Below, piece by piece: positions 29,531 to 35,187 of a stretch of DNA of 64,000 nucleotides. Numbering within the stretch: the first letter of the stretch is position 1; every line of letters begins with the position of its first letter. The notes under the pieces were generated by a model. It was given only the letters and a program-made list of their open reading frames with translations. It was not told the origin of the DNA and did not search any database. The translations under genes were made by a program, and so were the position numbers. The DNA comes from Synechococcus sp. CCY 9618 (GTDB taxonomy: Bacteria > Cyanobacteriota > Cyanobacteriia > PCC-6307 > Cyanobiaceae), in NCBI RefSeq assembly GCF_019038415.1, contig NZ_JAFKRG010000040.1:1-64000 (forward strand), written 5' to 3'.

Positions 29531-30181
29531 TCAGGGGATGGCGGCCCCGTCCGAAGCGGACCGGGCCGGGGGACCCTGCCAGCGGTTGAGGGACCCCAGC
29601 TGGAGCCCGAGGGTGTCGAAGACGCGGATCACCAGGAAGTCCACCATCTCACCGATCGTGCTGGGCTGGTGGTACCAGGCGGGCACCGGCGGCGCGATGC
29701 GGGCCCCCGCTTCGGCCAGACGGGTGAGATTGCGCAGGTGCACCAGATTCCAGGGCAGTTCCCGAGGGGCGATGACCAAGGGCCGGCCCTCCTTGAGATG
29801 CACGTCCGCGGCCCGTTCGATCAGATCGAGGGCCACGCCGGAGGCGATACGACCGACCGTGCCCATGCTCGCCGGCAGGATGACCATGCCGCGGGTGAGA
29901 TGGCTGCCGCTGGCGATCGCGGCGGCCTGATCGTTCCAGCGGTGACAGATCAGCCGGCCGGAAGCGCAGCCGGTGCGCTGGCGCCAGAAGCTCGCCTGGG
30001 CCTCGGGATCGGAGGGCACCCGCAGCCCCATCTCCGCCTGCCAGACACCGATGGCTCCCCGGCTGGTGACCATCTCCACCGGCAGATCGGCCTCCAGGAG
30101 CAGCTGCAGGGCCCGTTCCGCCAGGGGCTGGGCGGAGGCACCGGACACCGCCAGGACCACGGGAAGCGACGGTGACGGCAT
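29531..30181 (-). CDS. ubiX: flavin prenyltransferase
   Basis: Makes prenylated FMN, the cofactor of UbiD decarboxylases, here probably for plastoquinone or other quinone biosynthesis. 216 residues with the N-terminal FMN-binding AVSGASAQPLAERALQLL, SGSHLTRGMVILPASMGTVG and the conserved GVALDLIERAADVHLKEGRPLV region containing RPLVIAPRE. Length is normal. It follows the RNB gene by 8 bp. Its UbiD partner is not in this window. Confidence 0.92.
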   Translation of the reverse strand: MPSPSLPVVLAVSGASAQPLAERALQLLLEADLPVEMVTSRGAIGVWQAEMGLRVPSDPEAQASFWRQRTGCASGRLICHRWNDQAAAIASGSHLTRGMVILPASMGTVGRIASGVALDLIERAADVHLKEGRPLVIAPRELPWNLVHLRNLTRLAEAGARIAPPVPAWYHQPSTIGEMVDFLVIRVFDTLGLQLGSLNRWQGPPARSASDGAAIP

Positions 30182-30189
30182 CCTTTCGC

Positions 30190-32499
30190 TCAGCCCTCGG
30201 CCGCCGACAGGGCCGGGCTTTCACTGCTGTCTGGAGCATCGTCGCCGGAGCCGTCATCCTCGCCGGCCTGGTCAAAATTCTCTGGCTGGAGCACCACCAG
30301 GTCGATCTGGTGACGCAGGGCATCCACCTTCTGGATCTCCACGTCGACCCTGTCCCCCACCATGTAGGTGCGACGGAACTTGCGTCCCACCAGCCGGTTC
30401 TGCCTCGAGCGGTACTCGTACCAGTCGTCCTTGAGCGAACTGACGTGCACCAGACCCTCCACCTGGGAGGGGGGAACCTCGACGAAGAAACCGTAGCTCT
30501 GCACGCCGCTGATCACCCCGGGCAGGGTGCGGCCCACCAGGGGCTCGGTGTGCCGGGCCTGGGCCAGGGCCAGGGCGTCGGCCTTGAACTCCTGCAGGAA
30601 ACGGCTGCGGCCATTGAGGCGCTGGGCCAGACCGTGCTCCAGGGCCTGCTGGTAGGGCGCCAGCTGACCCGGTGTCAGCAGGGGCCAGTCGGTGGTGCCG
30701 TGGCAGGTGTCGCTGGCCAGGTCGGCGCCGATCTTGTGGCGCACGCTGGGACGGTCCTTGCCATCGACCAGCAGGCTCACCAGCAGGTGCTGGTTCCAGA
30801 GGTCGGCGTAGTGGAGGCCGGGACAGCACCAAGGGGCGACGGCGGTCGGCTCACCCGCCACGGCATTGGATCCGGCGGTCGCGGTGAGCTGGACCGGGCA
30901 CAGGGCCTCCCGCAGCTGCTGCTGGAGGGGCCGGCCCCTGTCGGTGGCGGCGAAGGCGGCGGCCAGTTCGGCGGCGCTGGCATTGCCGTCGGCACTGAGC
31001 TCCATGGGAATCTCCAGCGCCAGTGCGGCCTTGGCCACATCGTTGATCTCACTCGCCTCGGGCGCCGGATTCACGGCGTAGAGGGCCGGCAGTTCCAGGG
31101 CCAGCAGATGGCGTCCCAGGGCCCGCTGGGCCACCAGCACGGCCTCCCGCAGGATCGCCACCGGATCGCCTGTGGGCCGTTCCACCAGCCAGCCCTGGTG
31201 GGCGGCATCCGGCGAGGGAATCCGCAGGTCGCCCAGGCTGTCGATGGCGGGCATCGGCAGGTCGAGATCGATGGACCCTGCCGCCAGCCGTTGCTGGCGC
31301 AACAGACCGCTCAGCTGGACCAGCTGCTCCACCAGGGGCAGGTGCGCCTTGAGCGGTTTGAGGGCCGCAGGAACGGTGCGGGCCTTGGGCTTGCGTTCGG
31401 CCAGGGCCGCCATCGCCGCCTGGTCCACCCTGGCGTCAGGGGTGATCTGGCTGAGCGTGAAGCGAAAGTGCTCCAGGCTCCCCGCGGCGTCCAGGTCGAG
31501 GCAGACGGACAGGGCGCTCTGGGATTCACCGGCACGCAGACCGCAGGCCTTGGTGAGAGCCGCCGGCAGCAGGGGCAGCCAGCGACGACCCAGACAGATC
31601 GCCTCCCCCTGCTCCCGCAGCCAGGTGTCCAGGCTGTTGCCCATGCCGATGCGCTCCGCCACTGCGGGGCTGTGCACCCACAGCCGCCAGCCCCCCTCCC
31701 GCTCCTCCAGGGACAGGGCCGGCAGCACCGGGGCTTCGGCGGTCTCCCAGATGTCGAAGATCAGGGTCGGCAGGGCCGTCAGATCCGCACGGCCCTTGGC
31801 GACCGGCTGTTTCAGGGTGGCCCGGGGGGAGGCGGGGCGTTCATGCAACCGATGCTTGGCCTGGAGCAGGTCGGTGTCGGCGGTCTCACCGCCGTGCACC
31901 GGCAGACTGCGGACCACATGGCCGGTCGGACCGAACTGGGCGACGGGGAAGCGGTCGATCGTCACCTCCACCACCGCCTCTTCCGACGGCTCCAGGTGGG
32001 TCGCATCCGATTCGGGCAGGGCCACGGTGGTCAGCAGCCGGTCATCGAGGGGAACGGCCACGAGCTGTCCGTCCTGGCGTTCCACCTGGGCCAGCAGGCT
32101 GGGGGTGTGGCGCTCCAGGATGCACTGGACACCACCCTCAGGTGACCGGCGACGGCCCCCTTCCCGGGTGATCTTGACCAGGACCCGGTCGCCGTTCCAG
32201 GCGTGATTGAGCTGGTGGTCACGGATGTAGATGTCCTCGCCGCCGTCTTCCCGCAGAGCGAAGCAGAAGCCCTTGCTGGAGCACCGCAGCCGGGCGGCGA
32301 TCCGGTCGGAGGAGTCCAGCGAGCGGAGACCCTCGCCTTCTTCCTCCACCAACCCGAGCCTCGCGAGGGCGTCGAGGCCGATGCGCAGTTGCTGCTTGCA
32401 GGCCTTGGTGGTGAGCCCCAGGGACTTCTCCAGCTTGGCGAGGGCCACCGTGTCGGTCGTGGAGAGGTGATCGAGCAGATCGGCGACCGTGAACTTCAT
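30190..32499 (-). CDS. RNB-domain (RNase II/R-like) protein with degenerate active site, Zam-like
   Basis: 769 residues: N-terminal winged-helix/cold-shock domains (SKGFCFALREDG, DIYIRDHQLNHAWNGDRV), central RNB domain and C-terminal S1 domain (VISGVQSYGFFVEV). In active RNase II the RNB has four Asp (201, 207, 209, 210). Here the aligned stretch FDIWETAEAPV keeps only the first (Asp249), and the others are Glu255, Pro257 and Val258. The SPIRRYADL-type segment reads CPGLHYADL, losing the catalytic Arg. Probably not a nuclease but an RNA-binding protein, like the cyanobacterial Zam group. First gene of the run with ubiX. Confidence 0.8.
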   Translation of the reverse strand: MKFTVADLLDHLSTTDTVALAKLEKSLGLTTKACKQQLRIGLDALARLGLVEEEGEGLRSLDSSDRIAARLRCSSKGFCFALREDGGEDIYIRDHQLNHAWNGDRVLVKITREGGRRRSPEGGVQCILERHTPSLLAQVERQDGQLVAVPLDDRLLTTVALPESDATHLEPSEEAVVEVTIDRFPVAQFGPTGHVVRSLPVHGGETADTDLLQAKHRLHERPASPRATLKQPVAKGRADLTALPTLIFDIWETAEAPVLPALSLEEREGGWRLWVHSPAVAERIGMGNSLDTWLREQGEAICLGRRWLPLLPAALTKACGLRAGESQSALSVCLDLDAAGSLEHFRFTLSQITPDARVDQAAMAALAERKPKARTVPAALKPLKAHLPLVEQLVQLSGLLRQQRLAAGSIDLDLPMPAIDSLGDLRIPSPDAAHQGWLVERPTGDPVAILREAVLVAQRALGRHLLALELPALYAVNPAPEASEINDVAKAALALEIPMELSADGNASAAELAAAFAATDRGRPLQQQLREALCPVQLTATAGSNAVAGEPTAVAPWCCPGLHYADLWNQHLLVSLLVDGKDRPSVRHKIGADLASDTCHGTTDWPLLTPGQLAPYQQALEHGLAQRLNGRSRFLQEFKADALALAQARHTEPLVGRTLPGVISGVQSYGFFVEVPPSQVEGLVHVSSLKDDWYEYRSRQNRLVGRKFRRTYMVGDRVDVEIQKVDALRHQIDLVVLQPENFDQAGEDDGSGDDAPDSSESPALSAAEG

Positions 32500-32591: not shown

Positions 32592-32945
32592 CTAAGGAGC
32601 GGTGGTCTCGCCGGCCTCCCCGGCAACGGTGGGGGAACCGCCCGATGCCCCTGCCTCGGCCACCGCCGGCTCCTGCCGGGAGCGCAGGATCAGACGGGTG
32701 CCGATGATCAGAAAGCCGCCGGCGGCGGCCAGCTGGAGGGCGTCGGTGGGAACCACGCTCGAAAGCGATCCCCCCGCTGCCGCTCCCACCAGGCTGGCCA
32801 GCACCAGGGCGAAGGCACTGCCGGCGAACACTGCCCCGGGGCGGCTGGTGGTGCCGCTGATGCTGACGATGGCCAGCTGGGTCTTGTCGCCCAGTTCCGC
32901 CAGGAAGACGGTGGCGAAGGTGGAGGCGAGCAGGGCGAGCTGCAT
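32592..32945 (-). CDS. half-size TMEM165/GDT1 family transporter, subunit 2
   Basis: About 117 residues from the ATG at 32945 ([23 protein letters not shown]). One GDT1 repeat: three helices and the cation motif ELGDKTQ. Full-length GDT1 proteins have two such repeats; this gene carries one and the gene 5 bp upstream carries the other, so the pair probably forms a heteromeric Mn2+ (or Ca2+) exporter protecting against manganese overload, as for hemi-manganese exporters described in cyanobacteria. The C-terminal tail is a Gly/Ala-rich extension. Confidence 0.85.
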   Translation of the reverse strand: MQLALLASTFATVFLAELGDKTQLAIVSISGTTSRPGAVFAGSAFALVLASLVGAAAGGSLSSVVPTDALQLAAAGGFLIIGTRLILRSRQEPAVAEAGASGGSPTVAGEAGETTAP

Positions 32946-32950
32946 GGAGG

Positions 32951-33310
32951 TCAGGGGTTGGGCAGGGAGAGGGGCGCCAGATGCAGCACGGCCTGGCGAC
33001 CGAGCCACAGGCCCAGGGCGACCATCAGCAGGCCAGCCGCCCGCTCCAGCTGATGGGCGGGCATGACGGTGGAGAGCCAGCGGCCCAGCAGCACGCCCAC
33101 CAGGCTGGAGCAGATCAGGGCGAGGGACGCCCCGAGGAACACGGTCACGGGTTGACCGGACTGGGCCGAGAGCAGCAGGGCGGCCAGCTGGGTCTTGTCC
33201 CCCAGTTCGGCCAGGAAGACGGTGGTGGCCGTGGTGAGAAAGACGCTGACCCAGCCGCTGGGGGCCGGCTGGGGGGGCGACGGTTCCAGGGCCTCAGGCG
33301 CACTGCTCAT
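32951..33310 (-). CDS. half-size TMEM165/GDT1 family transporter, subunit 1
   Basis: 119 residues, one GDT1 repeat. A Pro-rich N-terminal tail, then [23 protein letters not shown] with the acidic cation motif ELGDKTQ, a helix IGSL-like segment ([18 protein letters not shown]) and a third helix ([15 protein letters not shown]). Partner of the gene that starts 5 bp downstream. Its ATG overlaps the TGA of the YkgJ-type gene (ATGA), which suggests translational coupling. Function: manganese efflux, inferred from family. Confidence 0.85.
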
Positions 33311-33753: not shown

Positions 33754-35187
33754 CTACACTCCATCCCGATCGTCCCTTTCCCCGGCAGCCGCATCATGGG
33801 TATCGACTTCCATCTCATCTCCAACTTCGGCGCCCTGGCCCTGATCACCCTGGCCGGACCGGCGGTGATCTTCATCCTCTTCTACCGCCGCGGCGCCCTC
33901 TGACTGATCCGCCGCCAGGAGGTCGGCCAGGGCGTGGTACACGGGCCGCTGCTGCACCTTCTGGCCCACATAGGTGGCGATCGCCGCTGTCGCCACCAGC
34001 CCCGCCATCATCTGCTGGTCCCCGGCCATGCGGACGGCGAAGGCGATCGTCATCACCGGGAGCTGGGTTGCCCCGGCCAGACCGGCGGCCATTCCCAGGG
34101 TCAGACCCAGGTGGGGATCGCCCGCCAAGGCCCGGACCACACCGGCCCCGAAGACCCCGCCAAGGGCGAAGGACGGATCGATCAACCCCCCGGGCACCCC
34201 GGCCGACAGGGCGAGCACCGGCCCGATCAGCCTTGAGCCCACCACGCCGAGCCAGGTCCAGTTGATCGCTGTGTCTGCGTCCTGCCTGAGGATCATTTCC
34301 ATCAGCCGCTCCCCGTCCCCGCCGCTGGCGCCGCCGGTGATCAGGGCCAGCAGGGACAGCCCGAGGCCTGCCGCCAGCCCCACCTGCAGGGGCCGGAGGC
34401 GGGCCAGAGGGGTCAGCCAGCGGGTGGCCAGCACCAGCAGCCGGGCGAAGCTGGCTCCCAGCAGACCGCCGCCCAGGCCGATCGGGATGGCCCAGAGGAG
34501 CTGTTCGGTCTCCGACACGGGGCTGATGTTGATCCCCAGGGCAAACATCGGCTGGCCACCCAGGTTGCTCACCAGGGCGGCACCGCTGGCCATCAGCAGG
34601 GCGGGCCACACCAGCCGTTCCTGGAAGCTGCGGGTGAGTTCCTCCACCACGAACAGCATGCCCATCAATGGCGTGTTGAAGCCACCGGCCAGGCCGGCCC
34701 CGGCCGCCCCCGCCAGCAGGTGACGATGGCTGGTGTGGCGCAGCACGGCGGGCCAGCGACGCAGCACGGCCTGACCGACCGCCGCCCCCAGCTCGACCAC
34801 CGGACCCTCCCGGCCCAGGGGCAGGAGGGCCAGACTCGCCGCCCCCCAGAGACCCACCCGCTCCAGGGTGGGCGGGGCGGTGAGCAGTCTGGAGGCCCGA
34901 TGCGGGTTCTCCAGGCAGAGCATCACCTGGGGGATGCCCGAGCCGACGCCGCGGCGCAGGGGGCCGTGCTGAAACCAGAGCAGCAACGGCATGAACAGGG
35001 TCGGCGCCAGGATCAGCACCAGGCCGGCGCCCGTCCAGGATCCGCCGTGGAACGCGGGAAGCAGCGACAGCAGCCGGTCCTGCAGCAGGTCGATGCGGTT
35101 GAGGGGCCAGCAGGCGGCGCCCACCAGGCCCCCCAGCAGGACCAGCAGGATCAGGGAGCGGCGCGAGCCGGTGAGATGGAGACTCAT
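33754..35187 (-). CDS. ClC-family chloride channel/antiporter
   Basis: 477 residues with about 12 helices. Selectivity motifs: [14 protein letters not shown] (gating Glu), [12 protein letters not shown] and a Tyr in RPVYHAL. The proton-pathway Glu (LFVVEEL) is present, so a Cl-/H+ antiporter is more likely than a passive channel. No CBS domains. The last about 50 codons run antisense through psb30 and give a low-complexity acidic tail; the functional protein probably ends near residue 420. TGA of this gene lies beyond psb30. Its ATG overlaps the recJ stop. Confidence 0.85.
33796..33903 (+). CDS. psb30: photosystem II protein Psb30 (Ycf12)
   Basis: 35-residue single-pass thylakoid protein of photosystem II that helps stabilise the complex. 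[20 protein letters not shown] then [15 protein letters not shown] is essentially the family consensus, with one hydrophobic helix and a basic C-terminus. Divergent from the YkgJ-type gene 105 bp away. The whole gene lies antisense to the 3' end of the ClC reading frame. Confidence 0.95.

Follow-up and report, generated by a model that had tools for sequence, protein, structure and literature searches.

A Zam protein of Synechococcus sp. CCY 9618 with a degenerate RNB active site that looks re-fixed within its family

The window analysed here, a stretch of 64,000 nucleotides from Synechococcus sp. CCY 9618, contains a reverse-strand open reading frame (positions 30190-32499) that translates into 769 amino acids without an internal stop and encodes an RNB-family protein with a degenerate active site, which we identify below as Zam. 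The gene is followed after 8 nucleotides by a flavoprotein gene on the same strand (29531..30181; Pfam Flavoprotein), which we take to be ubiX, and directly upstream lie two adjacent single-domain genes of the GDT1 family (32592-33310, reverse strand). A small forward-strand open reading frame (33796-33903), presumably coding for the photosystem II protein Psb30/Ycf12, overlaps a frame for a CLC channel on the opposite strand, at the part coding for the C-terminus of the channel. Among the 120 loci of the window's family (f1), 64 were examined for a ubiX homologue, which in 54 of them lies directly behind zam in the same orientation (gaps of -11 to 24 nucleotides), these 64 including nine loci from small genomes (g2) in which it was never seen, and in 48 of 86 loci with enough flanking sequence outside the family. 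In Anabaena, alr1240-alr1241-alr1242 form a transcription unit according to the portion of PMC10287535 consulted, which fits the order of zam, ubiX and a third gene seen in one of the surveyed genomes (L083).

The Pfam cut-offs were passed in the window protein by OB_RNB (residues 70-125), CSD2 (88-130), RNB (237-577; 147.3 bits against a cut-off of 29.3) and S1 (655-734), which bears out the claim of the initial annotation that cold-shock-like and S1 domains are kept. The CSD2 match falls on the same first cold-shock region as the OB_RNB match, and a second cold-shock domain, at approximately residues 131-236, is seen from the alignment with RNase R only. With boundaries set in this analysis, the first cold-shock domain, CSD1, which is the best-conserved domain of the protein, covers residues 65-130 (32110..32307, reverse strand) and the S1 domain residues 651-740 (30280..30549, reverse strand), and between them lies the RNB domain (30769..31791, reverse strand). 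This order of cold-shock/OB, RNB and S1 domains is that of Zam and is common to RNase R and RNase II (E. coli Rnr and Rnb). The best named NCBIfam profile is RNase R (TIGR02063), which the protein matches with 215.5 bits, far below the curated cut-off of 597.85, and it differs from both enzymes in its incomplete set of catalytic Asp, Tyr and Arg residues.

The genome of the window contains one other RNB match, the active cyanobacterial Rnb (L001; 229.7 bits versus 150.1 for Zam), which shares the RNB domain but, unlike Zam, has an intact active site (DDDD-Y-R). The gene in the window is Zam, the described cyanobacterial relative of RNA-degrading enzymes in which the cutting site has been lost, and it has the same domains, the same degenerate RNB site and the same C73/C79 numbering as the Zams of Synechocystis PCC 6803 (sll1910) and Synechococcus PCC 7002 (A1543), which likewise coexist with an intact Rnb. 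The loss of the active site is already in print for this family, and Zam proteins were concluded to be probably no nucleases (Thomas et al., 2022, PMC9145284). The earlier reading of a dead RNB site thus stands, but it had recognised neither the described family nor its functionally tested cysteines. In a quick LG+G4 tree, for which long-branch warnings were given, 115 Zams were on one side of a branch, apart from Rnb (SH-aLRT 98), and E. coli RNase II did not group with the other Rnbs but was placed next to RNase R.

We aligned the protein to E. coli K-12 RNase II, as the initial annotation had proposed, and found that D201 corresponds to D249, D207 to P257, D209 to L259 and D210 to P260, the Asp loop exceeding that of E. 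coli by two residues and single columns from 250 to 258 being uncertain. The catalytic R500 corresponds to L562 and the clamp residue Tyr253 to C302. The readings FDIWETAEAPV for the former Asp cluster (residues 248-258 with D249, W251 and P257; 31726..31758, reverse strand) and CPGLHYADL (residues 559-567; window 30799-30825) were right, and so was the conclusion that three of the four Asp residues and the catalytic Arg are gone; what had been missed was the additional loss of the clamp Tyr. The former Tyr253 region extends from C302 to W307 (31579..31596, reverse strand) and the former Arg500 loop contains W557, C558, C559, L562 and N569 (30793..30831, reverse strand). Instead of the DxxxxxDxDD acidic cluster, the protein has D/P/L/P.

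No Asp was found between residues 250 and 290, D249 and D291 being the only ones within residues 249-320, and no Arg within residues 531-582. The acidic cluster is therefore lost and not merely shifted, a shift being what the initial annotation had named as its refutation, and no register restores the motif. The first, third and fourth Asp residues of the RNB domain are thought to coordinate Mg, whereas the second bonds to the 3'OH (PMC8097288, consulted in part). Of the Mg-coordinating set the window protein keeps the first alone, and since only two of the 120 family members have Asp in the column of D249, this residue is not a conserved remnant. We also considered chance or sequencing error, which is ruled out by the occurrence of the loss in the relatives together with a dN/dS of 0.18 in the RNB domain, and a pseudogene, which is ruled out by the dN/dS values and by the single open Zam frames in 120 family genomes.

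The survey of relatives comprised a sample of the window's order with 120 genomes, all of them from the window's family, which we take to be the picocyanobacteria (Synechococcus/Cyanobium/Prochlorococcus) on the grounds of genome sizes of 1.5-4.0 Mb, a GC content between 0.27 and 0.71 in the zam region of five genomes and the photosynthesis genes in the window, and a phylum sample of 244 genomes, for which 105 genomes without a match were unlisted, so that presence counts concern the genomes listed. Zam was found in 120 of 120 genomes in the former, and in the latter 119 genomes gave a match at E<=0.001, of which 24 were from the family, 90 from the same class and five from outside the class, these five being weak (2.5e-9 to 5.7e-6). 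All 90 listed genomes of the same class had Zam, with one gene broken over two frames (L062), and in a further class member, G341, with an assembly of 1150 contigs, none was found, which may reflect missing data. Residues were counted in MAFFT alignments, extended with --add, of 209 Zams, of which 120 came from the order sample and 89 from the 90 genomes of the class, the frame-broken L062 being left out; duplicate loci of a genome were used once, the family counts are those on all 120 members and replace preliminary ones on 44 and 64, and 11 later Zams are outside the 209.

The four acidic residues were present together in none of the 209 Zams, and the published claim that the canonical site is absent from all Zams is thus strictly true in this sample. 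The Mg-binding triad D201, D209 and D210 and the Arg were kept in three of the 209 (L045, L070 and L078) and in one of the 11 later Zams (L415), with the second Asp as the sole missing site residue in all four. By the three-Asp criterion given in the consulted part of PMC8097288, these four carry an active-site signature, which makes them candidates for retained nuclease activity or for an intermediate stage and the place where nuclease activity could be sought. Tentatively, Asp-keeping Zams may be placed near the base of the Zam tree. The catalytic Arg was found in 45 and the clamp Tyr in 58 of the 89 Zams from other families, whereas both are lost in the window's family. The survey shows a graded loss, with a metal triad in a few lineages, E/N-type replacements in most others and a nearly uniform new state in the window's family. 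Outside the class, eight listed genomes of the phylum had an RNB match, and among seven of their proteins that were examined six were of the D-D-D-D-Y-R type and one had Gln at the fourth Asp (L120). All seven scored higher with the active-enzyme profile than with the Zam profile, and no active Zam ancestor was found among them.

Zam carries a redox pair of cysteines in CSD1, located in the window within the motif RCSSKGFC (C73 and C79; 32263..32286, reverse strand). C73 was found in 205 of 209 Zams (117/120 in the family, 88/89 in others) and C79 in 207 (119/120 and 88/89). In PCC 7002 the two are redox-active and required in vivo, and the changes C73S and C79S phenocopy the deletion of zam (PMC9145284), which in another cyanobacterium than ours was shown to give less phycocyanin synthesis and an altered PSI:PSII ratio (PMC9145284). 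To these the window's family, and no other, adds a third fixed cysteine, C126 (32122..32124, reverse strand; 120/120 versus 0/89). Natural variants occur in four of the 120 family members, with C73S in L256, L257 and L267 and C79S in L268, and all of them keep C126. The exception outside the family is L061, and all three genomes seen from its family, f18 (L061, L062 and L425), are without the pair. A two-cysteine switch is thus not universal, and the natural variants can serve as test cases for it. In f18 and in f47 (L422-L424) we also observed a shortened RNB domain, with 265-272 aligned residues in the five intact Zams.

The window's family has not only lost catalytic residues but, compared with known Zams, has also acquired fixed residues of its own, including C126, W251, P257, L259, W307, W557, N569 and a basic motif. 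In the RNB domain these are W251 (119/120 versus 0/89 in other Zams), P257 (116/120 versus 5/89), L259 (117/120 versus 0/89), P260 (112/120 versus 0/89), W274 (119/120 versus 0/89), E282 (120/120 versus 8/89), W307 (120/120 versus 2/89), F347 (120/120 versus 3/89), G505 (120/120 versus 2/89), W557 (118/120 versus 1/89) and N569 (120/120 versus 10/89). The basic motif extends from R369 to K384 (31348..31395, reverse strand) in the pattern R, K/R, three residues, R/K, four to six residues, LK, two residues and K, and it was found in 116 of 120 family members and in none of the 89 others. We also considered that C302, C558 and C559 form a new cysteine cluster in the former pocket, but rejected this because they are not fixed (81/120, 61/120 and 68/120, respectively).

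Identity across the RNB domain in 18 family representatives is 0.39 on average with a minimum of 0.19, and the fixed residues can thus not be attributed to a lack of time. Defining a family-specific fixed position as one present in at least 95% of the family and in at most 12% of the others, we counted 19 such positions among 341 in the RNB domain of Zam and 3 among 286 in that of Rnb, the latter serving as a control with the same 30 family genomes and 28 others. The 28 were the best-scoring Rnbs among 59 genomes, which could lower the Rnb count, yet with eight more Rnbs the number was still 3, and with those eight alone it was 2. Zam gave 13 to 22 positions in 50 draws of matched size, and still 19 when the comparison was made with its 28 closest relatives outside the family. 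The loops around the former Asp, Tyr253 and Arg500 hold 7 fixed positions among 45, as against 12 among 296 elsewhere (Fisher p 0.006, with loops drawn post hoc). From these alignments the old site in this family looks re-fixed into a conserved form, rather than drifting or merely decayed. We found no report of such a rebuild in the literature searched, which was open-access only; for Zam with Prochlorococcus and RNase no open-access publication was found, for cyanobacteria a single relevant one, and the main text of PMC9145284 does not contain the words Prochlorococcus, Cyanobium or picocyanobacteria.

Selection on the different parts of the protein was estimated as median Nei-Gojobori dN/dS over 36 pairs from nine genomes of the same genus, which gave 0.021 for CSD1, 0.051 for S1, 0.155 for CSD2, 0.167 for the HTH, 0.184 for RNB and 0.218 for the linker. 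All parts of Zam are under purifying selection, with CSD1 and S1 the most constrained. An AlphaFold model of the window protein, made with 41 Zams of named Nostocales, reached a mean pLDDT of 57, too weak for side chains. A Foldseek search with this weak model matched RNase R, RNase II and the pseudonuclease Ssd1, with TM scores of 0.32-0.39 by query length for RNB proteins and RNase R on a 30S intermediate at the top.

Taken together, we favor as the probable interpretation that Zam is an RNase R-like protein that does not cut by the family's known mechanism and acts as a redox-gated regulator binding RNA and/or RNase E, with the RNB domain as a scaffold. The missing residues, the lack of a full site in all 209 Zams and the same view in PMC9145284 lend good support to the loss of canonical nuclease activity that had been suggested earlier. 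In this mechanism Zam would no longer cut RNA in the manner of the RNB family, its OB folds would dock RNA and/or RNase E, and the state of the CSD1 cysteines, set by photosynthetic electron flow, would switch the docking. The RNB domain would be the scaffold. In the window's family its former catalytic pocket would be filled by W251, P257, L259, P260, W307 and W557, and it has gained a basic element as well. The idea that RNA binding is retained is plausible given that conservation is highest in CSD1 and S1; against this, purified PCC 7002 Zam had neither nuclease nor RNA-binding activity, although these data were not shown and the protein was prone to aggregation (PMC9145284). On this reading Zam is a bacterial pseudonuclease of the RNB type, with redox cysteines that connect it to photosynthesis.

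A link between Zam and RNase E has been proposed (PMC9145284), and there is a tension here with the reading of a dead site, since the link rests on Alr1240 of Anabaena, which is stated in a portion of a review (PMC10989914) to degrade unstructured RNA and to stimulate RNase E; that the protein studied in this work (Zhou et al. 2020, reference 47 of PMC9145284) is Zam is stated in PMC9145284. On this ground Zam could still degrade RNA via a non-canonical site without the Asp cluster, and the triad and Arg kept in L045, L070, L078 and L415 would point the same way. However, the Zams of family f7, which has Nostoc and Anabaena as its named near relatives, have no Asp at the four columns in 27 of 27 cases, so that the activity of Alr1240 needs either a new site or contamination, and a carry-over of E. 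coli RNase could explain the result. With the inactivity of the purified PCC 7002 protein and the D/P/L/P and Leu of the window protein, we consider such cutting highly improbable. On the contradiction in print about the RNase E partner in Anabaena, an active RNase II or a dead Zam, the sequences of the relatives favour the dead Zam.

The other explanations concern what the domain does now. If it were drifting debris kept as a spacer, with the OB folds alone functional, its conservation, which is lower than that of the other main domains, and its reduction in the five intact f18 and f47 Zams would be accounted for, but the dN/dS of 0.18 and the 19 fixed positions, at pairwise identities down to 0.19 and against 3 in Rnb, make this a poor candidate. 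Somewhat less unlikely is an action on the ribosome, on the 30S subunit or in translation, by a relative of RNase R that kept docking and lost cutting; RNase R is the best named profile and the top match of the weak fold model, and it binds 30S according to the part of PMC12320835 consulted, whereas the RNase R cut-off is far from reached. A compensating hydrophobic plug, by which the core was repacked after the acidic loss with no new ligand or partner, is a serious possibility, though less likely than not. It agrees with Pro, Leu and Pro in the former acidic columns, with the hydrophobic W251 and W307 and with the blocked RNA path in the dead RNB protein Ssd1 of yeast (extracts of PMC8934651), but packing would leave the fixed E282, R283, R369, K370, K381, K384 and N569 unexplained. 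The new residues may be in contact in three dimensions and fill the pocket. Alternatively, and only as a tentative suggestion that we hold to be rather doubtful, the pocket would have been rebuilt as a new binding site by W251, P257, L259, W307, W557, N569 and the R369-K384 motif, with C126 in the redox circuit. If so, Zam in this family would sense or bind something that its relatives do not. In any case, the rebuild names the residues to mutate: C126, W251, W307, W557 and the basic motif.

For the preferred reading of a regulator with a scaffold RNB domain, Ssd1 and the fungal RNase II pseudonucleases, in which the acidic cluster was lost and the cold-shock domains were conserved, show that an RNB protein has lost its activity independently elsewhere (PMC8934651, PMC8097288). 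By analogy, Ssd1 may be taken as a parallel for Zam as a scaffold-type protein: the acidic cluster is lost in both, and the RNB fold of the window protein is seen in the weak model only. In yeast Ssd1 the RNA binding has moved to an outer surface patch, as described in part of PMC8934651. Unlike the cyanobacterial Zam, Ssd1 is fungal and derived from Dis3L2; its channel is blocked by inserts. The active site of Rnb (D-D/E-D-D and Arg) was intact in all 58 genomes examined. In 14 of the 30 family members, which have small genomes (L343-L356), we observed that this active Rnb is reduced to 398-441 amino acids, approximately the RNB domain alone.
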